Shown one piece after another: positions 695 to 30,863 of a stretch of 64,000 nt of DNA; the stretch's first letter is position 1; every line of letters starts with the position of its first letter. The translations under genes were made by a program, and so were the position numbers. The notes under the pieces were generated by a model that was given only the letters and a program-made list of their open reading frames with translations, made no database searches and was not told where the DNA came from. This DNA comes from Comamonadaceae bacterium (GTDB lineage Bacteria; Pseudomonadota; Gammaproteobacteria; Burkholderiales; Burkholderiaceae_C), in NCBI GenBank assembly GCA_947450675.1, contig CANFWI010000004.1, positions 49,597 to 113,596 on the forward strand. Reading direction: 5' to 3'.

Positions 695-1897
695 TTACTT
701 GACTTGAAGCTTGACGCCAGGGGGCGCAAACTGCGCTGGGTAAACCACGACCCACTTACCGTTTTGCACCTGTTTGATCTTCATCAGGTCATCGCCATAG
801 TTGCCAGGACCGTCAAAGCGCAAACGCCCATGGATGGATTCAACGCGGTTCTTACGAAGCCACGCAGCGATGGCCTTGTCGTCAAGGCTGTTGGCACCGC
901 GCACGCCCGCTTCCAAAATCTGCCATGCTGAATACGACGCTGCGGCCTGTACCTCAACACTGGTGTCCGGCAAGTTCAGTTTGGCGGCACGTTCATTGAA
1001 AACTTTGACGAACTGAGCGGCCGTCGGGTTGTTGGTGAACGGCGCATGCTCTTCAAAAATCGTCACCGCCAACGCGTTATTGCCGTCAGCCGCTTTACTC
1101 ATCGGGCCTGGTGCCGGGTAGAGGTGAAAGTGCAACGGTGGCGTGTAGTCAATCTTCTTCATCGCATCGAGCAGCATGTTGCCTTCGAGGCCGATGTCAC
1201 CAATCCAGACCAGATCGGGTTTGGCATCTTTCACACGCGCAGCGATAGGGCCAAAATCCCGGTTGCCAAAGTCCCATTCCAAAAACAGCACTTCCGTCAA
1301 ACCACGTTTTTTAGCCACTTCACGACCGCCCAGCGACATGAAGTGAATTGACGGGAACTTGCTGGTGACGATGGCAATTGTCTTTGGGGGTTTTGGAGAT
1401 GCCGCGAGTGCATCAAAAAGTGTGTTGGGCACTGTGGTGCCGGGATCAGCTCCAATCGACCAGGCCGGAAACTGCATGTCGTACTTGGCCAAAGAGGGAA
1501 TGCCGAAGGTGTGGTGGACCAGCACTTTGTTGTAGCGTTGTGCGACACCCATGGCCGACAAAATCGCACCCGTGGCGTAGGGCCCCATCAATAGATCGAC
1601 CTTGTCGGACGTCACCAGCTGCTCGTAAAGCGTGCGCGCCAGTTCAGGTTTGGACTGATCGTCCTTCACCGTCCACTCGACCTTGCGGCCCAGCAAACCA
1701 CCGCGGGCGTTGAGCTGTTCAACATAAATTTCGCCGACCAGCTTGTGCGTCAAGGCGGTTGATGACAAGGGGCCCGTCAGCGCCAGCGTGCTGCCGATGC
1801 GTATCGGGCCAGGCGCCTGCGCCTGCGCCACGCCAGCCCATGCCAGCGCTGCACTCACCGCAGTCACTGCGGACAATTTTCTTCTTGTCATCTTCAT
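695..1897 (-). CDS. Periplasmic ABC transporter substrate-binding protein (LivK-like, peripla_BP_6 fold)
   Basis: 400 residues with a signal peptide (MKMTRRKL, hydrophobic core, cleavage near AQA-Q). The mature start PIRIGSTLALTGPLSS and the segment LNARGGLLGRKVEW are classic for the Leu/Ile/Val-binding (HAAT) family. A GGAGACA Shine-Dalgarno sits just before the ATG. It is followed directly by the LivH-like permease. It captures a small ligand in the periplasm; the ligand cannot be read from sequence. Association with an intradiol dioxygenase and a CoA-transferase upstream in the same strand run suggests an aromatic acid or a ring-cleavage product. Confidence 0.9.
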   Translation of the reverse strand: MKMTRRKLSAVTAVSAALAWAGVAQAQAPGPIRIGSTLALTGPLSSTALTHKLVGEIYVEQLNARGGLLGRKVEWTVKDDQSKPELARTLYEQLVTSDKVDLLMGPYATGAILSAMGVAQRYNKVLVHHTFGIPSLAKYDMQFPAWSIGADPGTTVPNTLFDALAASPKPPKTIAIVTSKFPSIHFMSLGGREVAKKRGLTEVLFLEWDFGNRDFGPIAARVKDAKPDLVWIGDIGLEGNMLLDAMKKIDYTPPLHFHLYPAPGPMSKAADGNNALAVTIFEEHAPFTNNPTAAQFVKVFNERAAKLNLPDTSVEVQAAASYSAWQILEAGVRGANSLDDKAIAAWLRKNRVESIHGRLRFDGPGNYGDDLMKIKQVQNGKWVVVYPAQFAPPGVKLQVK

Positions 1898-1960: not shown

Positions 1961-2950
1961 TCAGTCCACCTGCGCGCCAGAACGCTTGACCAAGTCAGCC
2001 CATTTGGTGATTTCAGATCGACCAAAACTGACCAGTTCGTCGGGTTTCATGTTGCGCAATTCAAGGCCTTGAGCGCCGAGTTTGGCGGCGACCTCCGGGC
2101 TTGCCATGGCCTGCGCCGCGGCCTCTCTGAGGCGCGCCAACACCGGCGCTGGCGTGGCCGCAGGGGCATACATCATGAACCAAGCCACCAGGTCAAAGTC
2201 AGCCACGCCTTGCTCCATCAAGGTCGGCACATCGGGCGCTGCAGCACTGCGTTTGGCACTGGACGCGCCCAGTGCACGCAGCTTGCCCGACTTGATGTGC
2301 GGCAACACAGCTGCCGGGTGATAAAACATGAACTGCACCTGCCCGCCCATCACATCGGTCAAGGCCAAACCGCCTTCTTTGTAGGGCACATGAACCATGT
2401 CACCACCGACGCGTGCTTTCAGCAGTTCACCGGCCAGATGTCCCGACGTGCCGTTGCCCGCCGATGCATAACTCACCTTGCTGCCGGGACGGTTCGCCAG
2501 CGTTGCCAAATCTTTCACCGTCTTCAAAGGCGAATTGGCGGCGACCACCAGCAAGGTCGGCGTGTAACCGGCAAACGCCACAGGCGCAAAGTCTTTCAGC
2601 GGGTCGTAGGGCAGCTTCTTGAACAAGGTGGCGTTGATCGCGTGCGTGCCGACCGTGCCCATCACGATGGTGTAGCCATCCGCCGCTGATTTGGCCACCA
2701 GATCCGAGCCAATGACGCCGCCAGCACCCGCGCGGTTTTCAACCACCACGGGCTGCCCCAGCGCCTTGCTCAAACCCTCTGCGATCACCCTGGAAATAAT
2801 GTCGGTCGTCGAGCCGGGACCAAACGGAACCACCAGCTTGATGGGGCGCAGCGGGTAGTCTTGCGCCAGGGCTGGCAAAGCGCTCAATCCTAGGGCGATC
2901 GAGGTTAAAAGAGTGGCGACCCGTACGCTGCCGTTTGAGCGTGAATTCAT
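1961..2950 (-). CDS. Bug (TctC) family tripartite tricarboxylate transporter receptor protein
   Basis: 329 residues with signal peptide ending near ALAQ and the Bug-family opening YPLRPIKLVVPFGPGSTTD. The later VVENRAGAGGVIGSDLVAKS and YASAGNGTSGHLAGEL are family hallmarks. These periplasmic receptors bind carboxylates or related small polar molecules; most are not linked to TctAB permeases, and none is linked here. The start codon overlaps the stop of the preceding CaiB-like gene by 4 bp (ATGA), indicating translational coupling. One of six Bug paralogues in the window. Confidence 0.92.
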   Translation of the reverse strand: MNSRSNGSVRVATLLTSIALGLSALPALAQDYPLRPIKLVVPFGPGSTTDIISRVIAEGLSKALGQPVVVENRAGAGGVIGSDLVAKSAADGYTIVMGTVGTHAINATLFKKLPYDPLKDFAPVAFAGYTPTLLVVAANSPLKTVKDLATLANRPGSKVSYASAGNGTSGHLAGELLKARVGGDMVHVPYKEGGLALTDVMGGQVQFMFYHPAAVLPHIKSGKLRALGASSAKRSAAAPDVPTLMEQGVADFDLVAWFMMYAPAATPAPVLARLREAAAQAMASPEVAAKLGAQGLELRNMKPDELVSFGRSEITKWADLVKRSGAQVD

Positions 2951-4132: not shown

Positions 4133-4930
4133 TCAGACCGCTTTCGGCATGTCGCCGGTGTACTGCAGGCCTTGGGTGGCTTGGTACGACAGCGCAAAAC
4201 CAATCGGGTCTTCCAGCTCTTCGTTCAGGTGCGCAATCAGACTGGCTGTGCGCGCCAGCATCGGCACGCCTTTGAGCGCATTGACCGGAAAACCCACGCC
4301 CAGCAACACCGCCGGAATCGCACCGGACACATTGAGCTTGAGTTCTTTGCCGACGACCTCAGGAATGACGGCCTCCACTATTTTTGCGATCTCAACATAA
4401 CGCTGGCCCGCGCCAGCCTCGGCCGAAACTTCGAACAAGCGTCCGACGCGCGGATCGCGTTGCTTGTGCTCGGGATGACCGTAACCTGCGATGGGCAACT
4501 TACGCGCACGCAAATCAGCCACCACCACACGCGCCGCCGCATGCAGGTCACCAGCGTGTTTGTCGGCTTCTTTTTCGACCGCCAAATACAAGCGCCCGGC
4601 TGTTTCTGAGGCGCCCAATATGACCGAGCCTGAGCCCAGCAGGCCCGCGGCCACTGCGCCTTGCATCGCGTCCGGCGCAGCAGCCAACGTCATGCGGGCC
4701 GCTTGCACGCTGGGCACCAAACCGTGCTCGGCAATCGCCACCAAGGTGGCATTCAGCACCGCACTGGTCGCTGCATCAGCCCGACGACCTGTGACCAACA
4801 AAAAGAAGTAATCGCCGAAATTAATGTGGCCGATCAGGTCACGGGACAAGTCCGCGCCGCGAACCACGATCGTGTCAGCGTTCGAGGTGCAAATGGCTGA
4901 ACGGGGTTGGGTGGCCTTGCCAATTTTCAA
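4133..4930 (-). CDS. Citrate-synthase-fold protein, citryl-CoA lyase-like
   Basis: 265 residues, much shorter than citrate synthase (about 430) and matching the length of the lyase module at the C-terminus of ATP-citrate lyase. GYGHPEHKQRDPR carries the conserved His of the family. LNVSGAIPAVLL aligns by eye with LNVDG of ATP-citrate lyase, so the usual catalytic Asp appears to be Ser. The ending HLNEELEDPIGF is also family-like. Lies between the intradiol dioxygenase and the CoA-transferase, suggesting C-C cleavage of a CoA ester, with acetyl-CoA as a likely product. The altered Asp makes the exact reaction uncertain. Confidence 0.75.
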   Translation of the reverse strand: MKIGKATQPRSAICTSNADTIVVRGADLSRDLIGHINFGDYFFLLVTGRRADAATSAVLNATLVAIAEHGLVPSVQAARMTLAAAPDAMQGAVAAGLLGSGSVILGASETAGRLYLAVEKEADKHAGDLHAAARVVVADLRARKLPIAGYGHPEHKQRDPRVGRLFEVSAEAGAGQRYVEIAKIVEAVIPEVVGKELKLNVSGAIPAVLLGVGFPVNALKGVPMLARTASLIAHLNEELEDPIGFALSYQATQGLQYTGDMPKAV

Positions 4931-4960
4931 AATGAAGCTCCTGGATGAGATGAAAAATAC

Positions 4961-5857
4961 TCAGGCCGACGGTACGAGTTTGAAGTCATAGTGCGCCGTA
5001 TGGAAAGGCGTGGCCATGACGCGGCCATCCGGCGCCGTGCCAGCGGGATGGGCTTGGAAATCAACGATCAGACTGTTGCGCACGCCAAACACCGCATCGG
5101 AATCCAAGAACGGGCTGTCGGACACAAACAGGTGGGTGATCAAACGCTCATGGCCTGGCGCGCTGAGCATGGTGTGCATGTGGCCTGGCCGGTTCGGGTG
5201 GCGCCCCATGCGGCGCAGCATGCCGCCGACCGGGCCGTCATCAGGCACTGGGTAGTAAGCCGGCTTGATCGACCAAAAGCGGTAGTTGCCGTCCGCATCG
5301 GTATGAAAACGCGCACGCAGGGCCATCGGCGCATCCGGACCTTTTTGCAAGTCATAAAAACCGTCGCCATCGCCCGACCAGACGTCTAGCGTGCAATTAG
5401 CAATCGGTTGGCCGGAGGTGTCGGTGACACGGCCGTGGTAGTAGGCCGGTGTGCCAGAGCTGACGCCGGTGATGTCGGAGCCCAAGGCCAGCTCGGGTGC
5501 ACCCTCCCAGAAAAACGGGCCAAGCACCGTGGCTTCAGTGGCCACCAGTGACGTCGGCTTGGCCTTCAGCGCAGCTTCAGCGCCCTTGGCTTGCTCGATG
5601 CCGACCACCGCCATGGAAAGGCCTAACGTGTCGGACAGCAAGATGAATTCTTGGCGCTTTTCATCGCACATCTGGCCGGCCGCCGTCAGAAATTCGATCG
5701 TCGACATCCATTCGTCGGGCGTCAGTTGCACTTCTTGCGCAAAGGCGTGAACGTGTTTGACCAGCGAGGTCATGACCTGCTTGAACCGAGGATCCTTGCA
5801 TTCAGTCATGCGCTCAATCACCGCTTGCGCCAAGTCTTTGACTTCAAGTTCAGCCAT
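4961..5857 (-). CDS. Intradiol ring-cleavage dioxygenase, hydroxyquinol 1,2-dioxygenase type
   Basis: 298 residues from the ATG at 5857, chosen because GGAGACAAAGC precedes it; the track ORF starts 13 codons earlier. An N-terminal helical dimerisation domain (about 1-110) is followed by the catalytic beta-sandwich. All four ferric-iron ligands are visible: Tyr168 (GFYDLQ), Tyr202 (YYPVPDDGPVG), His226 and His228 (RPGHMH). DGFYDLQ and the C-terminal THLFVSDSPFLDSDAVFGV are typical of hydroxyquinol rather than plain catechol dioxygenases. Expected reaction: hydroxyquinol + O2 to maleylacetate. The matching maleylacetate reductase is at 10961. First gene of a leftward operon, divergent from a LysR gene. 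Confidence 0.88.
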   Translation of the reverse strand: MAELEVKDLAQAVIERMTECKDPRFKQVMTSLVKHVHAFAQEVQLTPDEWMSTIEFLTAAGQMCDEKRQEFILLSDTLGLSMAVVGIEQAKGAEAALKAKPTSLVATEATVLGPFFWEGAPELALGSDITGVSSGTPAYYHGRVTDTSGQPIANCTLDVWSGDGDGFYDLQKGPDAPMALRARFHTDADGNYRFWSIKPAYYPVPDDGPVGGMLRRMGRHPNRPGHMHTMLSAPGHERLITHLFVSDSPFLDSDAVFGVRNSLIVDFQAHPAGTAPDGRVMATPFHTAHYDFKLVPSA

Positions 5858-6014: not shown

Positions 6015-6899
6015 ATGGAACTTCGCCATGTTCGTTACTTTGATGCGATCGCCGAAACACTGAATTTCACACGAGCAGCTGAGCGTTTGCATGTCACACA
6101 ATCGACGCTCTCGCACCAGATCCGGCAACTTGAAGAAGAGATTGGCGTTCAGCTGTTTGACCGCAGCTCCAAAAAAGTCCGCATGACGGAAGCTGGCGAA
6201 ATTTTGCGCAGCCACCTGACGCCGGCGCTTGAACACATTGACCGGGGCTTGCAGGCACTGCGCGCCGACACCCAAGCTTCGACCGGCCACATCCGTCTGG
6301 GCACCACGCCCAGCTTCAACGCCCGAATGGCCCCACTGTGCGTGAGCACCTTGTTGCAGCATTACCCCGGGGTGCAGGTCACTGTCGAAGAACTGGGTGC
6401 CAGCATGATTGCCAAGCGCTTGATGTCGGGCCATTTGGACATCGGCGTCTCTTACCGACCTGACAACCGGCCGGAGCTTTGGTTTGAGCCGCTTTACAAC
6501 GAGCAATTGCGACTGGTGGTGGCGGCAAATCATCCTTTGGCCAAACGTAAGCGGGTGCGCATGGTGGAGTTGCATCATCTGCGCATGGTGTTGTTACCAC
6601 GCCAATTTTTCACACGACAGTTGCTGGAAGACTGCTTTGAAGCGGCCGGTAGCAGGCCGCATGTGGTGGCTGAGCTCAACACGATTGCGCCCAGCATTGA
6701 ATTGATTCGTCGAACTGACCTGGCCGGCATCATCACCGAAACCGCCATCACTCCGGCCGACGATTTACGCATCGTGCCGCTGCAAGACCCGACGCCTGTG
6801 CGCACGCCTGGCATGCTCTGGAACAAGGGCGGCAACCGCTCGCCCATGCTGAAACATTTCACCGACATCATCCGGCGGGCCGCAGGCCCGGCCGAATGA
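6015..6899 (+). CDS. LysR-family transcriptional regulator, divergent to dioxygenase operon
   Basis: 294 residues from the ATG at 6015 (MELRHVRYFDAIAETLNFTR), the normal start for the family; the track ORF adds 86 upstream codons that run into the dioxygenase leader. The winged helix-turn-helix AAERLHVTQSTLSHQIRQLE covers about residues 18-37, followed by a type 2 periplasmic-binding-fold effector domain (GHIRLGTTPSFNARMAP onward). It belongs to the CbnR/CatR-like group controlling aromatic catabolism. It probably senses a ring-cleavage intermediate and activates the leftward operon starting at 5857. Confidence 0.9.
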   Translation: MELRHVRYFDAIAETLNFTRAAERLHVTQSTLSHQIRQLEEEIGVQLFDRSSKKVRMTEAGEILRSHLTPALEHIDRGLQALRADTQASTGHIRLGTTPSFNARMAPLCVSTLLQHYPGVQVTVEELGASMIAKRLMSGHLDIGVSYRPDNRPELWFEPLYNEQLRLVVAANHPLAKRKRVRMVELHHLRMVLLPRQFFTRQLLEDCFEAAGSRPHVVAELNTIAPSIELIRRTDLAGIITETAITPADDLRIVPLQDPTPVRTPGMLWNKGGNRSPMLKHFTDIIRRAAGPAE

Positions 6900-6911
6900 C
6901 GCGAGGCGTCA
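6897..6911. repeat. 15-bp dyad containing both stop codons of two convergent genes
   Basis: TGACGC-gag-GCGTCA. The left TGA (6897-6899) ends the LysR gene and the right TCA (6909-6911) is the complement of the nitroreductase stop. There is no T tract, so it is at best a weak bidirectional hairpin. Confidence 0.45.
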
Positions 6912-7493
6912 GAGAACGCTACAGGCTTGTGCAAAGCTCAGACGTGGGTTGCGGTCAAACAACTTGCTGTTGTCGCCGTAACCCAGGTTGATCAAAAAGT
7001 TGGCTTGCAGGCGTCCGTCAGGGAAAAATTCGGCATTGACTTTGGCCAGATCGACACCGCTCATCGGGCCGCAATCCAGGCCCACAGCGCGCGCGGCGAT
7101 CATGAAGTAAGCGCCGCTCAAGGTGCTGTTGCGGATGGCAGTGCCATCGGCCAAGGGCTTGTTGCCTTCAAACATTTCCTGGGCGCCAGGTTTGTGCCAG
7201 ACCACGGGCATGTGCTCGTAAAACCGCGTGTCAGTGGCAACGATGACGGTGACGGGTGCGACCGCGGTTTTCTCGACATTGCCCGGCGACAAAGCAGGGA
7301 TCAAACGCTGACGTGACTCGGCGGAGTTCAGAAAAACGTAGCGCGCGGGCTGCGTGTTCATCGAAGTTGCGCCCATCTTGGCGATGTCATAGACCTGCTG
7401 CAGCAGCTCGGCAGACACCGGCTTGTCTATGAAGCCATTGGCCGTGCGGGCTTTGAAAAAAAGTTGGTCGAGGCAAGTGTCAGAAATTTGCAT
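6909..7493 (-). CDS. Nitroreductase-fold NAD(P)H:FMN oxidoreductase, RutE/malonic semialdehyde reductase-like
   Basis: 194 residues. The N-terminal LDQLFFKARTANGF, ATSMNTQPARYVFL and the middle segment NSTLSGAYFMIAARAVGLDCGPMSG match the RutE/HadB branch of the nitroreductase superfamily. Members use FMN and NAD(P)H to reduce 3-oxopropanoate or other oxo and nitro compounds. Last gene of the leftward block starting at 9874. Substrate in this pathway is unknown; reduction of a quinone, semialdehyde or nitroaromatic are all possible. Confidence 0.82.
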   Translation of the reverse strand: MQISDTCLDQLFFKARTANGFIDKPVSAELLQQVYDIAKMGATSMNTQPARYVFLNSAESRQRLIPALSPGNVEKTAVAPVTVIVATDTRFYEHMPVVWHKPGAQEMFEGNKPLADGTAIRNSTLSGAYFMIAARAVGLDCGPMSGVDLAKVNAEFFPDGRLQANFLINLGYGDNSKLFDRNPRLSFAQACSVL

Positions 7494-7538: not shown

Positions 7539-8534
7539 TTACTCGGGCTTGATGTCAAGTTCACGCGTCAGCTGGGTCCAGCGGTCGACGTCGCGCTTGA
7601 CCAACGCCCGCGTGTCAGCGGGGCTCAGCGCCAATGGCCTGCCGCCCGCCTTGCGAAAAATATCGATCACATCAGGGGCCGCAATGACCTTGGCCAATTC
7701 AGTGCGCAGGTGTGAGGCCACATCTGCCGGGGTTTTGGCCGGCAGAAAAAAACCAAACCAAGACTCCAACTCCAAGGCGGCAACGCCGGTTTCAGTGATG
7801 GTCGGCACCGCCGGGTGGCCCGCCAAACGAGCACTGCCAGAGACTGCTAACGCCTTCACATTGCCGGCATCAACCTGCACACGGGCAGTCGGTGAGAGGT
7901 CAAAAAACACATCGACGCGGCCGCCCAACAAGTCTTGGTATGCCGCCTGCGCGCCGCGGTAAGGCACATGCACCAGCTCAACGCCGGCGAGATGCCAGAG
8001 AGCGGCTGCCAGCACATGCTGACCAGAGCCGTTGCCCGCTGATGCGTAGGTCAACTTGCCGGGATTGGCCTTGGCATTCGCCACCAAGTCTTTCAGGGAA
8101 TTGAAAGGCAAGTCTTTGCGCGCCATCAAGGTGTAGCTATAGGCCACGGCCAAACCGACGGGCTCGAAGTCACGCAGGCTGTCGTAGGGCAAATTGCGGT
8201 ACAGGCCCGGGTTGATGGCGAGATTGGAGATCGAGCCGACCAGCAAGGTGTAACCATCAGGCGCTGCCTTGGCCGCCACATCGGTCCCAATCAAGGTGCC
8301 CGAGCCGGGGCGGTTCTCAACCACCACCGGTTGCGCCAGTTGCTTGCTTAACCGGTCGGCCAGCAGACGCCCCACAAAATCAAAACCACCACCAGGCGGC
8401 TGCGGCACCACCACCTTCAGCGGCTTATTGGGAAACACTTGCGCGGCCGCAGGGATAGCCGTCCAGGCCAGCACCATCAGCAGCGTCTGAGCCAATGCCA
8501 AGCTGAGTCGGCCCTTCAGGGTATGACGGGTCAT
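7539..8534 (-). CDS. Bug (TctC) family solute receptor
   Basis: 331 residues with a signal peptide ending around PAAAQ. VFPNKPLKVVVPQPPGGGFD, VVENRPGSGTLIGTDVAAKA and YASAGNGSGQHVLAAAL are typical Bug segments. Note PPGGGFD in place of the more common PGGxxD ligand-loop sequence. It lies 45 bp upstream of the nitroreductase gene and downstream of the NTF2-like gene in one strand run, with GGAGACAAAG as Shine-Dalgarno. No TctA/TctB permease is nearby. Confidence 0.92.
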   Translation of the reverse strand: MTRHTLKGRLSLALAQTLLMVLAWTAIPAAAQVFPNKPLKVVVPQPPGGGFDFVGRLLADRLSKQLAQPVVVENRPGSGTLIGTDVAAKAAPDGYTLLVGSISNLAINPGLYRNLPYDSLRDFEPVGLAVAYSYTLMARKDLPFNSLKDLVANAKANPGKLTYASAGNGSGQHVLAAALWHLAGVELVHVPYRGAQAAYQDLLGGRVDVFFDLSPTARVQVDAGNVKALAVSGSARLAGHPAVPTITETGVAALELESWFGFFLPAKTPADVASHLRTELAKVIAAPDVIDIFRKAGGRPLALSPADTRALVKRDVDRWTQLTRELDIKPE

Positions 8535-8581: not shown

Positions 8582-9199
8582 TCAGCGCTCGAGCGCACCA
8601 CCGGCCAGCCAGCGTGCGCCGCGCTGATACAGCTCTTGCACCACCGGGCCTTTCAGCATCGGCATGTCGAGCTTGACGGTGTAACCAATCCGCGTCTGGA
8701 TGTAGGCGAGGTGACGGTAACCTTCAGGAAAGCCCGCCAAGGCCTCTTGGTCCAAGGACAAGGTAGCCGAGGAGTCGACCGGATCAATGCGGTCTTTTTC
8801 GTAAATCGGTTGGCGGTGCAACAGCTTCCACTGGCCTTCGTGACGCTGCACAAAGTCATAAAAACGACCGGTGCAGACGACATCGCACAGCACCGGACCA
8901 TGGGCGCCTTCGACCATGCCGCGCTGCGATATCGTCATTTTGGTTTGTGCAATGGCGCGGTCACCCGCCACTTCGACGGCTGACCCGCCCAGAAAATGCA
9001 GAATGCTGACACCCTTGTTCCAGCCCTCTTGCGTGACGCGGATGAACTCCTGAAACGAGCCCTGAAACCAAGTCGCCATCATGACGCCCTCTGGATGCCA
9101 GACGGTCGCGAAACGCGCCCAATCGCCGGCATCACGCCACAGCGCCCAACGCTCCACCATCTGGCGTATTTCCAACTCATTCTTCATGTCGTCAATCAT
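8582..9199 (-). CDS. NTF2-like (SnoaL/ring-hydroxylating beta-subunit fold) protein
   Basis: 205 residues. ELEIRQMVERWALWRDAGDWARFATVWHPEG is the usual opening of SnoaL_4/NTF2-like cone-fold proteins; the rest (FYDFVQRHEGQWKLLHRQPIYEKD) fits the same fold. The start at MIDDMKN is supported by GGAGACTTGA. In catabolic clusters such proteins act as small isomerases, dehydratases or hydrolases. No catalytic residues can be assigned with confidence. Co-directional with Dabb, YciI, Bug and nitroreductase genes. Confidence 0.78.
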   Translation of the reverse strand: MIDDMKNELEIRQMVERWALWRDAGDWARFATVWHPEGVMMATWFQGSFQEFIRVTQEGWNKGVSILHFLGGSAVEVAGDRAIAQTKMTISQRGMVEGAHGPVLCDVVCTGRFYDFVQRHEGQWKLLHRQPIYEKDRIDPVDSSATLSLDQEALAGFPEGYRHLAYIQTRIGYTVKLDMPMLKGPVVQELYQRGARWLAGGALER

Positions 9200-9239: not shown

Positions 9240-9545
9240 TTATGTCGGGACGACGTAATCAACTTGATGCCTGGCGGTGCGCAGGTCCGCCAACTCGCGC
9301 TTGACGCGCTGGTGTTCAGGGTGAACGGCATAGCCGTCCAGCGCCGCTTGGCTTTCAAATTCAGAATAAAGCACCACATCGCAGGCGTAGTCAATACAGC
9401 TTGAATCGACGCCAATTTCGAGGTTCAGCAAACCGGGTATGCGCCCACGCAGGGACTCAAAGCTGCGTTGTAACTGTGCAATACCTTCGCTCTTCTCGGC
9501 TGGCGTCTCACCGCGAATGTTCCACATGACGATGTGTTTGATCAC
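9240..9545 (-). CDS. Dabb (stress-responsive A/B barrel) domain protein
   Basis: 101 residues if translation starts at the GTG at 9545 (VIKHIVMWNIRGE), which has GGAGAATTTT just before it. The track start at 9605 adds 20 residues without family resemblance and runs into the preceding gene. The sequence IKHIVMWNI ... QLQRSFESLRGRIPGLLNLEIG ... EFESQAALDGYAVHPEHQ is a compact match to Dabb ferredoxin-like dimers. Related proteins act as small cyclases or decarboxylases, or bind reactive intermediates in aromatic pathways. Confidence 0.82.
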   Translation of the reverse strand: MIKHIVMWNIRGETPAEKSEGIAQLQRSFESLRGRIPGLLNLEIGVDSSCIDYACDVVLYSEFESQAALDGYAVHPEHQRVKRELADLRTARHQVDYVVPT

Positions 9546-9568
9546 AAAATTCTCCAGGCTCAAGACAC

Positions 9569-9874
9569 TCAAGCGGCGGCTGGAAAGCCAACGCGCTGCG
9601 GCCACAAATTGACAAAGGCTTGGGTCTCGCGACTTGCATACAGGCCCACCAAGTTGAAGGGCTCACTGGCCAACCAGGCGTCTGCCGCCGTGCGTGATTC
9701 AAAGTCGATGGCCAACAAGCTACCGACCATGGTCAGCCCATCGTCGGCCAACATCGGGCCGGCAAAGGCGATGCGATCGGCCACCGCCGCCAGGTAAATT
9801 TTGTGTTCAGGGCGAACGCGCTGCCGCAGCGCGGCTGCGTCAGGTTTATCGAGCAAGTGAAAGATGTAAATCAT
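9569..9874 (-). CDS. YciI-like (YCII-related domain) protein
   Basis: 101 residues. MIYIFHLLDKPDAAALRQRVRPEHKIYL opens like YciI-family proteins, and FAGPMLADDGLTMVGSLLAIDF plus DAWLASEPFNLVGLY match the conserved core. Family members include dehydrochlorinase- and muconolactone-isomerase-like enzymes of aromatic breakdown (ferredoxin-like fold with a His/Asp pair). First gene of the block running to 6909; divergent from the LysR gene at 10044. Confidence 0.82.
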   Translation of the reverse strand: MIYIFHLLDKPDAAALRQRVRPEHKIYLAAVADRIAFAGPMLADDGLTMVGSLLAIDFESRTAADAWLASEPFNLVGLYASRETQAFVNLWPQRVGFPAAA

Positions 9875-9986
9875 GGGAGGTGCTTTTTATGCGTTGGCTG
9901 ATTTTTTATGAATATAGTGGGCCCGCGTCTAATCTAAAAGCAGGCTGGCGCAAATGACTTTTTCATGCGGCGGAAGAAAGCCTCGC

Positions 9987-10008
9987 GGTCTGCGCCACAA
10001 TGCAGACC
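9987..10008. promoter_or_regulatory. Candidate operator between YciI operon and LysR gene
   Basis: GGTCTGC-N8-GCAGACC, a perfect 7-bp inverted repeat in the divergent intergenic gap. It lies 36 bp upstream of the LysR GTG start and shares the CTGC/GCAG core with the dyad at 5912. Role as LysR binding site is inferred. Confidence 0.5.
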
Positions 10009-10043
10009 AAGAACCGAGGGGTCGGTGACACCGGAGACACGGC

Positions 10044-10964
10044 GTGGACCGCTGGACTGAAATAGAACTGTTTGTACAGGTCGCCGAAACCGGCAGCCTG
10101 AGCCGTGCAGCGGAGGCACTGGATTTATCCAATGCAGCAGCCAGCCGGCATTTGTCAGCACTTGAAGAACGGCTGGGTGCGCGGCTGGTCGAGCGCAACA
10201 CGCGCAGGTTGTATTTGACCGACACCGGCCAAGCATTTTTCAGGCGCGCCAAAACTATTTTGACGGAACTCAAAGATGCCGAGTCGGCCGTCAACGCCAC
10301 GGGGCTCGACCCGACCGGCGTGCTGCGCATCACGGCGTCCCTGTCGTTTTCAGTGCACCACGTGGCACCTCTGTTGCGCGAATACACGCAGCGCTACCCT
10401 AACGTGCAGGTGCATGTGGAGTCGGCGAATCGCTACCTCGACATCATCGACAACAACATTGATGTGGCCATCCGCACCCGCGAGTCAGAGCCGGACTCGA
10501 ACATCACCATCCGCCGAGTGGCCGAGACCCGGCGCATCATGGCGGCCTCACCGCGATACCTGTCACAACACGGTTTCCCCAAGACGCTTGACGATTTGCA
10601 ACAGCACAAGATGCTGATGTACACCCACGCCAACAACCCGAACGAGCTGCGCTTCACCCGTGGCAACGAGACCGCCACGGTGACGGTCAAAGGCTTGCTT
10701 GAGTCAAACGATGGCCAAATTTTGCGAGCCGCTGCGCTCGACGGCATGGGGATTTTGGTGCAGCCCACCTACATTCTTTACGAAGACATCGTCGCCGGTC
10801 GACTGGTGCCAGTGCTCGATGACTGGGACCTGCCGCGCCTGAACATCAACTTGGCCTACCCGAGCCGCAAGCACCTGTCAGCCAAGGTTCGCACCTTCAT
10901 CGACTTCATGGTCGAGCACTTTGACAAGATGGACTACGAACGCAAGTGGACTGGCCGCTTTTAG
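10044..10964 (+). CDS. LysR-family transcriptional regulator
   Basis: 306 residues from a GTG start preceded by GGAGACACGGC. Helix-turn-helix SRAAEALDLSNAAASRHLSALEE follows MDRWTEIELFVQVAETGS, then a ligand-binding domain (GVLRITASLSFSVHHVAPLL). The N-terminal pattern (ASRHLSALEERLGARLVERNTRRLYLT) is close to the DmlR/AaeR-like group. The gene ends convergently with maleylacetate reductase, sharing TTAG (10961-10964). It probably controls the leftward block starting at 9874. Confidence 0.9.
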   Translation: MDRWTEIELFVQVAETGSLSRAAEALDLSNAAASRHLSALEERLGARLVERNTRRLYLTDTGQAFFRRAKTILTELKDAESAVNATGLDPTGVLRITASLSFSVHHVAPLLREYTQRYPNVQVHVESANRYLDIIDNNIDVAIRTRESEPDSNITIRRVAETRRIMAASPRYLSQHGFPKTLDDLQQHKMLMYTHANNPNELRFTRGNETATVTVKGLLESNDGQILRAAALDGMGILVQPTYILYEDIVAGRLVPVLDDWDLPRLNINLAYPSRKHLSAKVRTFIDFMVEHFDKMDYERKWTGRF

Positions 10965-12064
10965 TCGGGACGCCGGCCGTCAAAGGCGTTTTGCAGCAAC
11001 TGACGCAGCGCCACCCGCTCGAGCGGCCGCGGATTTTGGTATTGGTTCTGCATCGCTATGTCGCACGCCTTGTCGAGGTCGGCCTCTTGCATACCGAGCG
11101 CACGCAAAGAAACCGCGGCGCCGTTGTCTTGCGCCAGGTCGAACACCCCTGCCGCCGCACTGCGCTCGCCACCTTGAGTCCCACCCGCTGAGCCAGCGCC
11201 ATTCAAAGCCTCCGCAATGATTGCCATGGCCTGCGGCGCACACGGGGCGTTGTAAGCCAGCGCATGCGGCAGCACCACGGTGTGGGTTTCAGCATGCGGC
11301 AAATTGAAAGTTCCGCCTAGCGTGTGGCACAGCTTGTGGTGCAGCGCCATGCCGACGTTGTTCATCACCAAACCGCACAGCCAAGCACCGTACAAGGCAT
11401 CGCTGCGAGCCGTACGGTCGGTCGCCGACTGGCGGATCAAGGGCAGCGCGCGGGCCAGCGCGGCAATGCCTTCACGCGCCATCAAGTCCATCACCGGGTT
11501 GCTGTCGATGCCGTACAAACCTTCAGCAGCGTGCGCAATGGCGTTGATGCCACTGGTCACGCTCAAGCTCACGGGTAACGTCAGCGTGAGTTCCGGGTCG
11601 TAAATAACGGTGCGCGGCAGGACGCGGGGATCGCGGCCGGTTTTCTTCATGCCGTCTTCCGTGATGCCGTAGACCTCGGTCATCTCCGAGCCGGCATAGG
11701 TTGTTGGGATGGCCAAAATCGGCAAGCCAGAGTCGAGCGCGATGGCCTTGCCCAGTCCTGTCGTTGAACCACCCCCAATAGCCACCGCACAATCAGCCCC
11801 CAGCTGACGCGCCAAGACTCTGACGTCGCGCACGGTCTCGATTGGCACATGCATCACGGCGCGGTCAAAAATACCGGCGGCACGCGCGCCGAGTAAGTGG
11901 GCCACTTGTTCTGCCGAAGCGCGTTGCTCAGGCGTGCACAGCACCAAGGCTTTGTGCGCACCCAACGCTTCGATTTCTGCGCCAAGTTGGCTCAACGATC
12001 CGGGCCCAAACACCACCTTGCCGGCTTGGCCACGGTAAACAAAACTTTTCATGGGATCTTTCAT
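10961..12064 (-). CDS. Maleylacetate reductase (iron-type alcohol dehydrogenase superfamily)
   Basis: 367 residues. GKVVFGPGSLSQLGAEIEALG, AVAIGGGSTTGLGKAIA, PTTYAGSEMTEVYGIT and HHKLCHTLGGTFNLPHAETH are diagnostic for maleylacetate reductase (MacA/TfdF/GraC family). It reduces maleylacetate with NADH or NADPH to 3-oxoadipate. Its substrate is the product of the hydroxyquinol dioxygenase at 4961, and its product enters PcaIJ at 22962-24322. The ATG overlaps the stop of the upstream dehydrogenase by 4 bp. Last gene of the leftward block starting at 20605. Confidence 0.94.
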   Translation of the reverse strand: MKDPMKSFVYRGQAGKVVFGPGSLSQLGAEIEALGAHKALVLCTPEQRASAEQVAHLLGARAAGIFDRAVMHVPIETVRDVRVLARQLGADCAVAIGGGSTTGLGKAIALDSGLPILAIPTTYAGSEMTEVYGITEDGMKKTGRDPRVLPRTVIYDPELTLTLPVSLSVTSGINAIAHAAEGLYGIDSNPVMDLMAREGIAALARALPLIRQSATDRTARSDALYGAWLCGLVMNNVGMALHHKLCHTLGGTFNLPHAETHTVVLPHALAYNAPCAPQAMAIIAEALNGAGSAGGTQGGERSAAAGVFDLAQDNGAAVSLRALGMQEADLDKACDIAMQNQYQNPRPLERVALRQLLQNAFDGRRPD

Positions 12065-12957
12065 TCTTGGGGATTCAGGCCAGCACTGCGCTCGACTATT
12101 CGGATGATGGCCGCGTAGTCGAGCAGCCCATCACCTTGCGCCATGGCGGCGTGCATCAGTTGGTGTGTCAGTGAGGTTTGCGGCAAGGGCGCATGCACGG
12201 CAGCACCGGCAGCCAAAATCAAATCGAGGTCTTTGGTCATTTGTTCGACGGTGAAGGTCGGCGTGAAATCACGCGCACCGAGCTGCTCTGACTTGGCCTT
12301 GAGAATCGGTGACGCCACCGCACTGGCAGTCAAAACTTGCCACATGTCTTGCCATTGCAAACCGCCCTTTTGACCCAGCGTCAAACCTTCTGACAGCATG
12401 GCGCTGGTCTGCGCAATCATCAGGTTCACCACCAGCTTCATGAGCCGAGCTTCTTCAGCTTGACCCAGGTAAAAATGATGCGGGCCGAGCTGCTGCAGCA
12501 AGGGCAGCACGTGGTCATAAGCCGCGCGTGGACCTGACGCCATGACGGTGAGCTGCGCCGCTTCGGCCATCTTGTTGTTGCCCGACACCGTCACCCGCAG
12601 GTAAGTGATGCCAGCCGCAACGCACACATTGGCAACCTGCGCCGAGGCCTGCTGCGACACCGTGCTGGTGTCGATGTAAATGCAGCCTTTGCGCGCCTGT
12701 TCCGCCACCTGGGCACTGACGGCCAGCAAAGCGGCATCGTTCGGCAGTGACGAAAAAATCACGTCAGCAGCGCTCAAGGCTTGCGCAGCATCAGCCGCCA
12801 CTTGCAGGCCTTGCGCGTCGGCCAATCGCTGTCGCTCAGCACTCGGATCACTGACCGTCACGGCGTGACCAGCCGCGTGAAGATGCCCGGCCATCGGCAA
12901 GCCCATCTTGCCGACACCCAGAAAATGAAGGGCGATTTTTTGACTCACTGGGGTCAT
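12061..12957 (-). CDS. Beta-hydroxyacid dehydrogenase-like NAD(P)-dependent oxidoreductase
   Basis: 298 residues from the ATG at 12957 (MTPVSQKIALHFLGVGKMGLPM). The track start at 13041 lies inside the preceding gene and is rejected; the chosen ATG overlaps its stop as ATGA. A Rossmann FLGVGKMG motif is followed by the substrate segment TVSGNNKMAEAA, where most family members have VSGG, and VVNLMIAQTSAM where the catalytic Lys follows LMK. Resembles 3-hydroxyisobutyrate or tartronate semialdehyde reductases. A related gene with the same VSGN change lies at 19670. Substrate unknown. Confidence 0.85.
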   Translation of the reverse strand: MTPVSQKIALHFLGVGKMGLPMAGHLHAAGHAVTVSDPSAERQRLADAQGLQVAADAAQALSAADVIFSSLPNDAALLAVSAQVAEQARKGCIYIDTSTVSQQASAQVANVCVAAGITYLRVTVSGNNKMAEAAQLTVMASGPRAAYDHVLPLLQQLGPHHFYLGQAEEARLMKLVVNLMIAQTSAMLSEGLTLGQKGGLQWQDMWQVLTASAVASPILKAKSEQLGARDFTPTFTVEQMTKDLDLILAAGAAVHAPLPQTSLTHQLMHAAMAQGDGLLDYAAIIRIVERSAGLNPQE

Positions 12958-13541
12958 GCGGCGCTCTGTACTTTGGGTGCCAGCCCGCCCAACGTGCCTG
13001 CCATGAACTGGCTGTGCTCCATTCCCAGCAAACGGTTCCAACGTTGTTGGCCCATGGTCAGGCCAATGAAGAAACCCAGCTCGACAATCTCATCCTTGTT
13101 GAAATGGTCGTACAGACCTTGCCACAAATCATCTGTCGGCTCGAGCCCCCAGGTGATGGCTTCGGCCAAGCGCAGCGCCGCTTTTTGACGCGTTGAAAAA
13201 CGCGTCGCCTTGTCAAAATCCAGCAAGTCTTTGACTTGGTCTTCCAACAGTCCTTCAGCCTGCGCCTTGACCGAGCGCTGGTTGCCGCAGTAATTGCAAT
13301 TCACCGCCTGCGACACGTACAAACGGCACAACTCTTTGACCGCGTGCTCACACACACCCTCCACAAACGTGTCGTTCCAGGCGTTGGTGAAAGCCCAAAA
13401 AACTGCGGGCACATTGGCGCGAATGGCGTGACTTTCAGGGCGTGGCGCACCGTCACGGGCCGCACGCTGAAACTCTGCCAGCATGGCCGGGTCGGTGATG
13501 GCGGCCGGATCAATGTAAGGGATGCGCGGTGACGTACTCAT
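12954..13541 (-). CDS. AhpD-like / carboxymuconolactone decarboxylase-family protein
   Basis: 195 residues from the ATG at 13541, which follows AAAGGAGTTTTCG; the track ORF adds 70 residues of another gene's shadow. The CxxC pair in NCNYCGNQRSVKAQ, preceded by EHAVKELCRLYVS, matches the AhpD-like redox motif. LLDFDKATRFSTRQKAALRLAEAIT is the usual following helix. Such proteins are thiol reductases or act on cyclic lactones and peroxides. Here it may protect against quinone or peroxide by-products or process a ring-cleavage intermediate; neither can be decided from sequence. Confidence 0.85.
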   Translation of the reverse strand: MSTSPRIPYIDPAAITDPAMLAEFQRAARDGAPRPESHAIRANVPAVFWAFTNAWNDTFVEGVCEHAVKELCRLYVSQAVNCNYCGNQRSVKAQAEGLLEDQVKDLLDFDKATRFSTRQKAALRLAEAITWGLEPTDDLWQGLYDHFNKDEIVELGFFIGLTMGQQRWNRLLGMEHSQFMAGTLGGLAPKVQSAA

Positions 13542-18301: not shown

Positions 18302-19666
18302 TCAATGCGCCAAGCCCAGTGCCAAAGCGATCTTCTCGCCGGACTGCTGCAAGGCGCGCAAATGGGGTTGCAAGTCAACGCCCAACAACTGCCCCGCGCG
18401 TTTTTTCCACTGGCCAGCCACCATGACGCTGTCGATATTGGCCAACGAGGTTTGCATGACCACTGAATTCACAACGTCATGCACCGGCTGCATGTTCAGG
18501 TCAGTGGCGCGGATCATCACCAGATCCGCCTGTTTGCCGCTGGCCAGCGAACCGATCCGGTCTGCCTGCTTGAGCATGCGAGCACCTTCAATGGTGACCC
18601 ACGACAGGGCTTCGCGCGTGGTCACCGTGGACGTGTTTGGAATACTGCCGTGCTGCTCGCGGTGGGCGGCGTTGTCGAGTGAGCGCTGCATGCCAAGGGC
18701 CACGCGGGCCTGCACCAACATCTCGCCACTGATGGCGCTTTCAAGGTCAACCCCCAGCGATGGCGCACGGCCAAAAGCGCGCAACCTGCCGGTGATCGGG
18801 TAGCCATGACCTTGCGTCATTTCACTTTCCGGCGCGGCCGAAAAACTCATGCCAAGGTCGCAAAATCGCTTCAGCTGGTCGTCGCTCAAGGCATGGCCAT
18901 GCACGATGTTGATGTGGTCGCCGAGCAGTCCGGCGGCTTCTAACTTTTCCCAGCCGTCTGGCGTACGGGCGGGCCCGCCGCCTTGGTGCAGCGATGCGAT
19001 CAGCCCAAGTTCTTTGGCCATGGCGAAGTCGTGCATGGCGACATCCAGCGTCGAATAATGCGGACCCAACACCGCCACCTGAACACTCAGCAGCGAACGG
19101 CCCTGATGCGCCTTGAGCAAGCGCTCGATCTCAGCACGTGGATGCGGCACTTCCCAAAAAGGCGTCTGCCCCGGCAAGGGATCGGGCTTGGGCGTGCCAT
19201 GAAAAAATGCGGCCCGAATCCCCGAAGCTAACAAGCCGGCAATGGCCGCATCATTCGACTGCGGTGTCGGGTTGTTGTGACACCAGTCAGCCAGTGTGGT
19301 GGTGCCGCAGTTAAGCTGGTTCAAGGCCCCGACCAGCGTGGCAATGTACAAATCTTGCGGCTCGAAAACCGTCGCCAGACCGGCGTGCATCTTGCGGAAA
19401 TATTCGAGCAGCGTCCAGTTGGAAGCCAGCCCGCGCAGCGCTGTCTGCCACGTGTGCATGTGCGCATTCACCAGCCCCGGAATGACGATGTAGCCGCTGC
19501 CGTCAATCACCTCTGCGTCATCGACATGGATGCGCGGCGCAATCTCAGTGAGCGTGTCGCCGGTGATGAGAATGTCGCCCTGCGGCAGATCGCCCTGCGC
19601 ATCCATCGTGATGATGGACGCACCGCGGATCAGACTTCTTTTCAGTTGTGTTGGCTGCGCGGCCAT
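18302..19666 (-). CDS. Amidohydrolase-superfamily deaminase/hydrolase (TrzA/AtzB/8-oxoguanine deaminase-like)
   Basis: 454 residues. GLVNAHMHTWQTALRG holds the HxH metal pair and GTTTLADW follows as in subtype III amidohydrolases. Further candidate metal ligands are His in SLHQGGGP, His in VHGHALSDD and Asp in SLGVDLESAIS. The C-terminus (IGSLASGKQADLVMI) is the usual composite beta-sandwich signature. These enzymes deaminate or dechlorinate N-heterocycles or cleave amides. Immediately downstream of the dehydrogenase at 19670 (3-bp gap). In this operon it may remove an amino group from a heteroaromatic substrate. Confidence 0.87.
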   Translation of the reverse strand: MAAQPTQLKRSLIRGASIITMDAQGDLPQGDILITGDTLTEIAPRIHVDDAEVIDGSGYIVIPGLVNAHMHTWQTALRGLASNWTLLEYFRKMHAGLATVFEPQDLYIATLVGALNQLNCGTTTLADWCHNNPTPQSNDAAIAGLLASGIRAAFFHGTPKPDPLPGQTPFWEVPHPRAEIERLLKAHQGRSLLSVQVAVLGPHYSTLDVAMHDFAMAKELGLIASLHQGGGPARTPDGWEKLEAAGLLGDHINIVHGHALSDDQLKRFCDLGMSFSAAPESEMTQGHGYPITGRLRAFGRAPSLGVDLESAISGEMLVQARVALGMQRSLDNAAHREQHGSIPNTSTVTTREALSWVTIEGARMLKQADRIGSLASGKQADLVMIRATDLNMQPVHDVVNSVVMQTSLANIDSVMVAGQWKKRAGQLLGVDLQPHLRALQQSGEKIALALGLAH

Positions 19667-21719: not shown

Positions 21720-22925
21720 TTAAACCCGCTCAAGAATCAGCGCAATGCCCTGGCCGACGCCGATGCACATGGTGCACAGCGCGTAGCGACCACCGGTGGC
21801 GTGCAAGCGGTTGACGGCCGTGGTGGCCAGTCGGGCACCCGAAGCGCCCAATGGGTGACCCAAAGCAATCGCGCCGCCCCAAGCATTCACGCGGGCGTCG
21901 TCGTCACGCAAGCCGAGTTGGCGCAACACGGCCAGTCCCTGCGCGGCAAAGGCTTCATTGAGCTCAATCACGTCCAGCTGCTCCAACGTGAGGCCCGTCA
22001 GCGCCAGCACTTTTTGGGTCGCTGGCGCAGGGCCAATGCCCATGATGCGTGGCGGCACGCCAGCGGTCGCCATGCCCACAATGCGGGCGCGCGGTGTCAA
22101 GCCGTTCTTGGCGGCGCTGGCTTCGTCGGCCAACAACAAGGCACAGGCACCATCGTTCACGCCGCTGGCGTTGCCCGCCGTCACGGTGCCGTCTGGACGC
22201 ACCACGCCTTTGAGTTTGGCCAGCGTTTCCATCGTGGTCGCACGTGGGTGTTCGTCTGTGTCGACGATGATGGCGTCGCCCTTTTTCTGGGCGATCGTGA
22301 CGGCGGTGATTTCGCGTGCGAAATGGCCGGCCTTTTGTGCGGCCACCGCGTTCAATTGGCTGGCCAGCGCCATGCGGTCTTGCGCTTCGCGCTCGATATG
22401 AAAGTCAGTCGCCACGTTTTCAGCCGTCTCAGGCATGGAGTCGACGCCGTAGGCTTGCTTCATCAGCTTGTTGACAAAGCGCCAGCCGATGGTCGTGTCG
22501 TAGACCGCGTTGGCGCGGCTGAAAGCGCTCTCAGCCTTGGGCATGACGAATGGTGCGCGGCTCATGCTTTCCACGCCGCCAGCGATCATCAGGCCGGCTT
22601 CACCCGAACGGATCGCACGGGCTGCCGTGCCGACTGCATCAAGGCCAGAGCCGCACAAACGGTTGATGGTGGCGCCCGGCACTTCAAACGGCAAACCGGC
22701 CAACAGACTCGACATGTGGGCGACGTTGCGGTTGTCTTCGCCGGCCTGATTGGCGCAGCCATAGATCACGTCGGTGATGGCTTGCCAATCCACATTCGGG
22801 TTGCGTGCCATCAAGGCGCGCAGCGGAATAGCGCCGAGGTCGTCGGTGCGCACGCTTGACAGCGCGCCGCCATAACGGCCGAAAGGTGTGCGGATAGCGT
22901 CGCAAATAAAAGCTTGTGAACTCAT
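21720..22925 (-). CDS. pcaF: 3-oxoadipyl-CoA thiolase
   Basis: 401 residues, the usual length for PcaF/PaaJ thiolases. The nucleophilic Cys is in INRLCGSGLDAVGTAARAI; GGVESMSRAPFVMPK, NEAFAAQGLAVLR, GGAIALGHPLGASGAR and the proton-abstracting Cys in CIGVGQGIAL are all present. It cleaves 3-oxoadipyl-CoA with CoA to succinyl-CoA and acetyl-CoA. The neighbouring PcaIJ transferase supports this over a general acetoacetyl-CoA thiolase. Co-transcribed in the order pcaI-pcaJ-pcaF. Confidence 0.92.
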   Translation of the reverse strand: MSSQAFICDAIRTPFGRYGGALSSVRTDDLGAIPLRALMARNPNVDWQAITDVIYGCANQAGEDNRNVAHMSSLLAGLPFEVPGATINRLCGSGLDAVGTAARAIRSGEAGLMIAGGVESMSRAPFVMPKAESAFSRANAVYDTTIGWRFVNKLMKQAYGVDSMPETAENVATDFHIEREAQDRMALASQLNAVAAQKAGHFAREITAVTIAQKKGDAIIVDTDEHPRATTMETLAKLKGVVRPDGTVTAGNASGVNDGACALLLADEASAAKNGLTPRARIVGMATAGVPPRIMGIGPAPATQKVLALTGLTLEQLDVIELNEAFAAQGLAVLRQLGLRDDDARVNAWGGAIALGHPLGASGARLATTAVNRLHATGGRYALCTMCIGVGQGIALILERV

Positions 22926-22961
22926 GGTGTGTCTTCTTTCAATGTGAGTGGTTTGTATTTT

Positions 22962-23624
22962 TCAGGCCGCCACGGCGACAGGCAAGCCGAGCATTTTTTC
23001 AAGTTCAGCGTGCGTCAGCCCGTCGACCATGTCGATCAGCAACAAGCCTTTGGGCGTGCATTCAAGCGTCGCCAGTTCAGAATAAATCCGCTTCACGCAG
23101 CCAATGCCGGTGATCGGATAACTGCACTCGTTGACGACTTTGCTCTCGCCTTTTTTGGTCAGCAAATCCATCATCACCCAGGTTTGCTTAGCGCCAATGG
23201 CCAAGTCCATGGCACCGCCAACCGCAGGAATCGCGTCTTTCTCGCCGGTGCTCCAGTTCGCCAAGTCACCGGTCGCGCTGACCTGAAACGCACCCAGCAC
23301 GCAAATGTCCAAGTGCCCGCCGCGCATCATGCTGAAACTGTCAGCGTGGTGGAAATACGCGCCGCCAGGCAGCAGCGTCACCGGCTGTTTGCCAGCGTTG
23401 ATCAGGTCGTAGTCTTCATCACCCGCAGCAGGTGCCGGGCCCATGCCCAGAATGCCGTTTTCGCTTTGCAAAATCACTTCAATGCCGGCCGGCAAATGGT
23501 TAGCCACCAGCGTCGGCATGCCAATCCCGAGGTTGACGTAAGCGCCGTCATGAATGTCTTGGGCCACGCGCTGAGCCAACTGTTCTTTGCTGCGTTTTTG
23601 ATAGCTGATGTCACTCATGCTCAT
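22962..23624 (-). CDS. pcaJ: 3-oxoadipate CoA-transferase beta subunit
   Basis: 220 residues. VNLGIGMPTLVANHLP and the catalytic Glu motif LQSENGILGMGPAP are diagnostic for class I CoA-transferase beta subunits. TEKGESKVV-like (TKKGESKVVNEC) and PITGIGCVKRIYSEL fit PcaJ/ScoB. With PcaI it moves CoA from succinyl-CoA to 3-oxoadipate. Start overlaps the pcaI stop by 4 bp. ScoB (acetoacetate:succinyl-CoA transferase) is the alternative, made less likely by the pcaF neighbour. Confidence 0.9.
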   Translation of the reverse strand: MSMSDISYQKRSKEQLAQRVAQDIHDGAYVNLGIGMPTLVANHLPAGIEVILQSENGILGMGPAPAAGDEDYDLINAGKQPVTLLPGGAYFHHADSFSMMRGGHLDICVLGAFQVSATGDLANWSTGEKDAIPAVGGAMDLAIGAKQTWVMMDLLTKKGESKVVNECSYPITGIGCVKRIYSELATLECTPKGLLLIDMVDGLTHAELEKMLGLPVAVAA

Positions 23625-26019: not shown

Positions 26020-26188
26020 CTGAGTTGGTCAGTGGGGAGCGGTTGTTCAATGCCCTATCAAATCGCCCTGAATTTGGGCTGATAATCTTTTTCACTCTGC
26101 GGATTTCGAGCGCCACATTGAAGCCGTTAAATTCAAAAAAACGCCGTCACGCTTGAACACGCAGCATCAAATTGAAGGAGTCAACAGC

Positions 26189-27202: not shown

Positions 27203-27233
27203 ACAAGCCAAGGGGCGACCAAGGATCTCCTGT

Positions 27234-28556: not shown

Positions 28557-28644
28557 AATTTCAGCGGAGGAACAAGACCTTTGGATTCGGCCGACACCAT
28601 CCTTGTTGTCTAAAGCGAGCGGGCGCACCGCGCGGGCCTCAAGG

Positions 28645-29937: not shown

Positions 29938-29994
29938 GGTGTTGTCTCCTGTGTACCTGCTTAGGTATTCTCAAGATTCGGGCCACCTGCGGCA

Positions 29995-30773: not shown

Positions 30774-30789
30774 AAGAACCCCCTTAAGC

Positions 30790-30808: not shown

Positions 30809-30863
30809 AGACTTCCTATAGATCAACACAAACAGTGGACTGCCTTGCCCAACACCCGATGAC

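Follow-up and report, generated by a model that had tools for sequence, protein, structure and literature searches.

Known lower pathways of aerobic aromatic degradation include the β-ketoadipate, meta-cleavage and gentisate/homogentisate routes, the hydroxyquinol route with maleylacetate reductase (MAR), and routes through coenzyme A (CoA) epoxides. Pairs of a CoA-transferase and a CoA-lyase are known for itaconate and citramalate. The locus described here lies in a 64,000-nucleotide stretch of a soil or freshwater Comamonadaceae bacterium (GenBank assembly GCA_947450675.1, contig CANFWI010000004.1, positions 49,597 to 113,596 of the forward strand; hereafter the window) and joins an intradiol dioxygenase of the hydroxyquinol 1,2-dioxygenase (HQD) type, HQD1, to a citryl-CoA-lyase-like protein (for brevity, the lyase) and a CaiB-type CoA-transferase. 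With the itaconate and citramalate pathways, as generally understood, it would share the order of a CoA-transferase and then a C-C lyase acting on a short diacid, in some cases together with a hydratase; the lyase of those pathways, however, is an unrelated CitE barrel, whereas here it has the citrate-synthase fold and is linked to ring-cleavage dioxygenases. The hydroxyquinol-MAR pathway is also represented in the window, by MAR and pcaIJF, but HQD1 is directly partnered by the CoA-transferase and the lyase, and many carriers of the module lack MAR. On a modest balance of probability, the trio appears to represent, in betaproteobacteria, a conserved lower pathway that processes ring-fission acids as CoA derivatives.

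Read 5' to 3' on the minus strand, the trio continues into two receptor genes, and a regulator gene diverges from it:

4961..5857, minus strand: HQD1, hydroxyquinol-1,2-dioxygenase-type intradiol dioxygenase, 298 amino acids (aa); Pfam Dioxygenase_N and Dioxygenase_C
4133..4930, minus strand: citryl-CoA-lyase-like protein, 265 aa, citrate-synthase fold; Pfam Citrate_synt, 78 bits; NCBIfam NF004868
2947..4125, minus strand: CaiB/BaiF family III CoA-transferase, 392 aa; Pfam CoA_transf_3, 347 bits, whole domain
1961..2950, minus strand: TctC/Bug periplasmic receptor of the tripartite tricarboxylate transporter type
695..1897, minus strand: branched-chain-amino-acid-type ABC substrate-binding protein, final gene of the run and in the same position in relatives
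6015..6899, plus strand: LysR-type regulator, divergent from the dioxygenase operon

The dioxygenase and lyase genes are separated by 30 bp and the lyase and CaiB genes by 7 bp, CaiB and TctC overlap by 4 bp, and 63 bp lie between TctC and the ABC receptor; because of this spacing, the run from dioxygenase to ABC receptor looks like one operon, judged from the coordinates. The tight run of dioxygenase, short citrate-synthase-like protein and CaiB that a preliminary description of this DNA had noted is thus confirmed, with CaiB just outside the interval it covered (4133-5857). A promoter scan (4 found, 1.9 expected), in which terminators were near the shuffled expectation, was not used for any reading. 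The same assembly holds a second lyase-CaiB-TctC-ABC receptor fragment, 93-97% identical (G000 contig C91 1-5513, locus L114), reflecting either a strain mixture in the metagenome-assembled genome (MAG) or a recent duplication.

The lyase gene starts with TTG preceded by AGGAG, and its product matches the NCBIfam model NF004868 'citryl-CoA lyase' (PRK06224.1-5) over its full length with 323 bits at a cut-off of 193. Its closest PDB relative by sequence, at 29% identity, is the Hydrogenobacter citryl-CoA lyase 6hxp, which is also the top fold match of an AlphaFold model (pLDDT 83; E 1.7e-12, TM 0.75). Fold, length (~260 aa) and the active-site His and Arg positions are shared with 6hxp and the ATP-citrate lyase module. 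Alignment with these enzymes bears out the two motifs reported in the preliminary description, the conserved His of GYGHP (His152) and LNVSG (Ser202) in place of LNVDG. The Ser is no distinguishing mark of this protein: among 146 aligned homologues, the position of the catalytic Asp is occupied by Ser in 107, Asn in 24, Thr in 13, Ala in 2 and Asp in none, which also rules out a peculiarity or error of this one gene. H69, H152, R79, R161 and H234 are invariant (146/146), as is R227 in 145/146 with the remaining row ambiguous. The partners likewise differ from those of citryl-CoA lyases, being a CoA-transferase and dioxygenases; no citryl-CoA synthetase was seen beside the lyase, although a genome-wide search for one was not made. 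All members of the NF004868 family examined lack the Asp, and the name of this subfamily model is no proof of activity here. Neither PDB sequence searches nor the open-access literature searched yielded a characterised homologue bearing this Ser, so that the question raised in the preliminary description, whether close Ser-bearing homologues are proven ordinary citryl-CoA lyases, drew no such case. The label 'citryl-CoA lyase' is probably wrong for this protein. In human ATP-citrate lyase the D1026A mutant is described as inactive, and the authors of that work favour an allosteric role for the residue rather than one as base or catalyst (PMC10115795); given this dispute, a missing Asp is by itself no proof of a new reaction.

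For the CaiB partner, the Asp in the PxxDxxxQ segment is invariant across 120 homologues; from knowledge of formyl-CoA transferase, we take this residue to be catalytic. At three loci (L108, L134, L191) a CoA ligase stands beside the lyase in place of CaiB, and since a ligase can substitute for the transferase, the lyase is not merely a CaiB subunit.

A lyase search over 84,980 species genomes yielded 80 loci. The CaiB and HQD counts given next come from 86 betaproteobacterial-type Ser loci, a few of them from whole-genome searches; loci were picked by lyase similarity, not by their neighbours, and several of the genome lists were chosen by us and are non-random. Of the 86 loci, 78 have CaiB and 52 an HQD-type gene no more than 300 bp from the lyase, so the adjacency of the trio is not due to chance. 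The preliminary description had made its proposal depend on the trio recurring across genomes, and it does recur. The conserved run, LysR divergent from HQD1-lyase-CaiB-TctC, includes lyases down to ~65% identity; it is the usual order in Polaromonas, Ramlibacter and Hydrogenophaga, and HQD-lyase-CaiB is also found in Rubrivivax. LysR, lyase and CaiB, mostly with TctC, are kept without the dioxygenase in most loci of Bordetella and Achromobacter and in those of Cupriavidus and Paraburkholderia; in Bordetella sp. 02P26C-1 and Advenella, MAR is added to the lyase operon. On a Burkholderia glumae plasmid, a single run between insertion sequences comprises LysR, divergent from genes for an intradiol dioxygenase, the lyase, an MhpA-type hydroxylase, CaiB, LeuC, LeuD and a TIM-barrel protein. 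Its dioxygenase and lyase are 54% and 66% identical to those of the window, the lyase motif is NVS, and no MAR lies within the run, which reads as a putative series of hydroxylation, ring cleavage, CoA transfer, C-C cleavage and hydration without MAR. LeuC or LeuCD accompany lyase-CaiB at five further loci (L051, L113, L130, L186, L227). A contig titled Akkermansia muciniphila (L009) carries a Polaromonas-like cluster with an 87% identical lyase, and is probably a mislabelled or contaminated MAG.

The lyase-CaiB pair extends across Alpha-, Beta- and Gammaproteobacteria, on plasmids and chromosomes, beside dioxygenases of unrelated folds. In alphaproteobacteria it is found with class III extradiol genes of the LigB and LigA type (L133, L188, L190, L193-L195, L198, L201). 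Annotated plasmids of Sinorhizobium, Aminobacter MSH1 and Martelella have this arrangement too, in most cases joined by an amidohydrolase or a gene of the quinone-reductase type. HQD-type enzymes only 35-37% identical to that of the window accompany the pair at L126, L189 and L192, the latter two alphaproteobacterial. Sphingomonad-type genomes and two gammaproteobacteria combine the pair with IclR, TonB receptor, WrbA, MetE-like and VOC genes, and both gammaproteobacterial genomes have LeuCD beside it as well. Genes of the quinone-reductase type (WrbA, FMN reductases) are repeated members of the module. Of 130 loci whose lyase carries Ser or Asn, 96 have a gene of a ring-cleavage type (intradiol, LigB or VOC) within 6.5 kb, compared with 0 of 15 Thr/Ala loci. 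On the lyase tree there are at least 14 switches between having and lacking such a gene, and the association has therefore been either repeatedly gained or repeatedly lost.

Several observations stand beside these distributions. A PRK08204-type amidohydrolase recurs with the module (window 18302-19666, L188, L189, L198, L221, L231), the one at L189 with a twin-arginine-like signal at its start. At L201:12331-13206, LigBA and an intradiol dioxygenase are followed downstream by a gene for a protein resembling β-keto acid cleavage enzymes (DUF849, family assigned by reading). The Thr/Ala sister proteins, members of the same NCBIfam family (L084-L096, L135, L136), are found near acyl-CoA dehydrogenase, MmgE/PrpD-like, CitE-like or TctC genes, and are read as belonging to a separate pathway.

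HQD1 belongs to the hydroxyquinol 1,2-dioxygenase family, sharing the Dioxygenase_N and Dioxygenase_C domains with characterised members. In the PDB sequence search its top matches are the hydroxyquinol 1,2-dioxygenases 1tmx (268 bits) and PnpC (3n9t, 257 bits), while catechol 1,2-dioxygenases score at most 122 bits. The iron-ligand positions Tyr, Tyr, His and His are retained in HQD1 and throughout 61 aligned dioxygenases. The segment around the iron site is altered, reading RPGHMHTML in HQD1 as against RPAHLHFMI or RASHLHFMV in characterised hydroxyquinol dioxygenases. RPGH, mostly as RPGH(M/I)H, occurs in 54 of 59 lyase-linked dioxygenases, and RPAH in 19 of 20 located farther from the lyase, as in PnpC. 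About 15 Burkholderiales relatives have both kinds: the altered enzyme belongs to the lyase operon, and HQD2, an ordinary dioxygenase 44-48% identical, heads the neighbouring operon between a second LysR gene and a YCII gene (for example L002:2218, L004:3199, L008:2277). This paralogue HQD2 has the RPAHLHF-type segment that HQD1 lacks. We infer that the lyase-linked dioxygenase prefers a substrate other than that of ordinary hydroxyquinol dioxygenases. HQD2 was not found in the window, where the corresponding gap is 9874-10044 and HQD1 is the single intradiol gene across 64 kb; this genome either lost HQD2 or never had it.

The preliminary description had set the trio apart from operons that pair the dioxygenase with MAR, a contrast that does not hold as drawn. 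In the window MAR lies ~5 kb from the trio, in the same cluster but a separate transcription unit, and 33 of the 34 genomes in one search, mostly HQD-lyase-CaiB carriers, have MAR, which rules out mutual exclusion of the pair and MAR. Conversely, 35 of 42 alpha- and gammaproteobacterial module carriers lack MAR, and another genome search found no MAR in Aquabacterium terrae, Methyloversatilis EHg5 and Bordetella genomosp. 4, all carriers of HQD and lyase; CaiB is present, in the stretch fetched, in two of these three, and Methyloversatilis EHg5 gave no pcaF match either at the threshold used. Thus, the module is found together with MAR in genomes that offer it, and in others without it.

The analysis shows gene identities, order, conservation and residues; from there on the account is inference, with the three enzymes acting in series. 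The dioxygenase, taken as a paralogue of hydroxyquinol 1,2-dioxygenase, would open a (substituted) trihydroxybenzene to a maleylacetate-type β-keto diacid, CaiB would transfer CoA to this ring-fission diacid, and the Asp-less lyase would split the C-C bond adjoining the thioester, giving acetyl-CoA and a C4-type diacid. With its two His and Arg set, the lyase may place water on the keto carbon, converting maleylacetyl-CoA to maleate and acetyl-CoA; where present, LeuCD would hydrate maleate to malate, and MAR would saturate the chain first, leading to succinate. The recurrent partners HQD, MAR and LeuCD would all be accounted for by this single scheme. Hydrolytic retro-Claisen cleavage of a 3-oxoacyl-CoA is the most parsimonious chemistry for the lyase, though a rather doubtful assignment. 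Homocitryl-CoA, CHA-CoA and 4-hydroxy-2-oxoadipyl-CoA were weighed as lyase substrates and dropped for want of evidence. More broadly, but still tentatively, the module could represent a widespread, so far undescribed aerobic route for the ring-fission acids that different types of dioxygenase produce: CaiB or a CoA ligase would activate them, and a new Asp-less branch of the citrate-synthase fold would cleave them as a 3-oxoacyl-CoA retro-Claisen hydrolase, with LeuCD and MAR as alternative helpers.

A number of findings weigh against a pathway from ring fission through CaiB to the lyase. Among 25 genomes selected mainly for a lyase locus without a linked dioxygenase, 12 have the pair and no intradiol dioxygenase at E<=1e-10; they include Bordetella, Advenella, an Alcaligenaceae strain and an Oxalobacteraceae MAG, and in Bordetella sp. 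02P26C-1, the Alcaligenaceae strain and two Advenella the sole MAR found is that in the lyase operon. Dependence of the pair on an intradiol dioxygenase is thereby ruled out, and the pair also handles, it would seem, an acid imported or otherwise made. The alternative lower pathway proposed in the preliminary description accordingly survives in part: the trio is conserved and the pair recurs with unrelated dioxygenases, but ring cleavage is not what the pair serves in every genome, and the splitting reaction is putative. In the main rival explanation, CaiB would activate an imported 2-hydroxy diacid of the malate or citramalate type, sometimes made by LeuCD, and the lyase would split it as a CoA ester of malyl, citramalyl or citryl type; the dioxygenase would be one supplier among several or a passenger. 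Besides the genomes without a dioxygenase, the TctC, TRAP or ABC receptors that accompany the pair are in keeping with it, as are the recurrence of LeuC or LeuCD nearby, the run of CaiB, 3-hydroxy-3-methylglutaryl-CoA (HMG-CoA) lyase and LeuC adjoining the pair on Cupriavidus pBB2, and the retention of both carboxylate-binding Arg positions of the lyase. It leaves unexplained, however, the repeated association of the pair with unrelated dioxygenases, quinone reductases and a flavin hydroxylase, of which the Thr/Ala sisters show none, and the Asp for making or protonating the acetyl-CoA enolate is never present in the lyase; we regard an imported-acid cassette as unlikely, though not negligibly so. 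The ring-cleavage association has weak points of its own. VOC proteins are a fold match only and were not accepted as proven ring-cleavage enzymes, making the VOC counts its weakest part, and LigAB- and HQD-type enzymes normally yield different products from one substrate. On a Sulfitobacter alexandrii plasmid (L230) a lyase homologue lies with HMG-CoA lyase, biotin carboxylase, acyl-CoA dehydrogenases and MaoC, and at L109 one lies with biotin-carboxylase subunits, neighbours which indicate that the wider lyase family works in other acyl-CoA pathways; the match list has proteins similar to the L230 homologue on many roseobacter plasmids.

The chemistry assigned to the lyase meets a further difficulty. 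The citrate-synthase His retained in 6hxp (AHGGA) is Leu105 in the window lyase and Leu in most homologues; because both this His and the Asp are missing, the protein may not form an acetyl-CoA enolate at all. It could instead have lost the Claisen machinery and serve as a thioester hydrolase, an isomerase or a regulatory partner of CaiB, which would fit the replacement of Asp in all homologues and the allosteric role argued for the corresponding ATP-citrate lyase domain. The two His and Arg set, invariant in the aligned set, fits a working enzyme, and the loci with a CoA ligase in place of CaiB speak against a regulatory partner of CaiB, so that a protein other than a C-C lyase is, in our view, improbable. 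Lastly, the preliminary description, which had the trio in view, missed MAR (10961-12064) and pcaI, pcaJ and pcaF (24322-21720), with which the window encodes the classical conversion of hydroxyquinol into succinyl-CoA and acetyl-CoA; with that route at hand, the pair is not needed to finish maleylacetate. Ordinary hydroxyquinol catabolism, with lyase and CaiB unrelated to it and present by chance, would suit these genes and the frequency of MAR in carriers, but HQD-lyase adjacency is too frequent for this and is repeated with other dioxygenases, and the relatives keep their ordinary hydroxyquinol dioxygenase as a separate gene outside the lyase operon; we consider this explanation very improbable.

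The remaining genes of the cluster lie on the far side of the first LysR gene:

6909..7493, minus strand: nitroreductase-family protein of the neighbouring operon; NCBIfam malonic semialdehyde reductase, 275 bits (cut-off 152)
7539..8534, minus strand: second TctC receptor, neighbouring operon
8582..9199, minus strand: SnoaL-like protein, neighbouring operon
9240..9605, minus strand: Dabb-domain protein, neighbouring operon
9569..9874, minus strand: YCII-domain protein, neighbouring operon
10044..10964, plus strand: second LysR regulator, divergent from the YCII-Dabb-SnoaL operon
10961..12064, minus strand: MAR, 500 bits to 3jzd
12061..12960, minus strand: hydroxyisobutyrate-dehydrogenase-like reductase adjoining MAR
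18302..19666, minus strand: PRK08204-type amidohydrolase; 17 beta- and alphaproteobacterial loci have a homologue close to the lyase
21720..24322, minus strand: pcaF, pcaJ and pcaI, the classical β-ketoadipate terminal enzymes
24416, plus strand: IclR regulator beside the pca genes, family assigned by reading

The nitroreductase-family gene is syntenic in relatives and is kept beside the module in Comamonadaceae. Farther along (26153-37116), translations read as rhodanese-, sulfide:quinone-oxidoreductase- and ETHE1-like proteins and a SulP-type permease suggest a sulfide-oxidation cluster.

Searches of the open-access literature returned no paper linking citryl-CoA lyase with hydroxyquinol or CaiB, linking hydroxyquinol with CaiB and maleylacetate, or naming maleylacetyl-CoA. 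The module would offer a test of what the citrate-synthase fold is capable of without its acid-base residue, and its novelty would rise if the Asp-less protein turned out to act as a retro-Claisen hydrolase. If the proposed pathway is true, it would correct the 'citryl-CoA lyase' label on proteins without the catalytic Asp, and would add a further lower pathway in three proteobacterial classes, explaining how MAR-less strains finish ring-fission acids.

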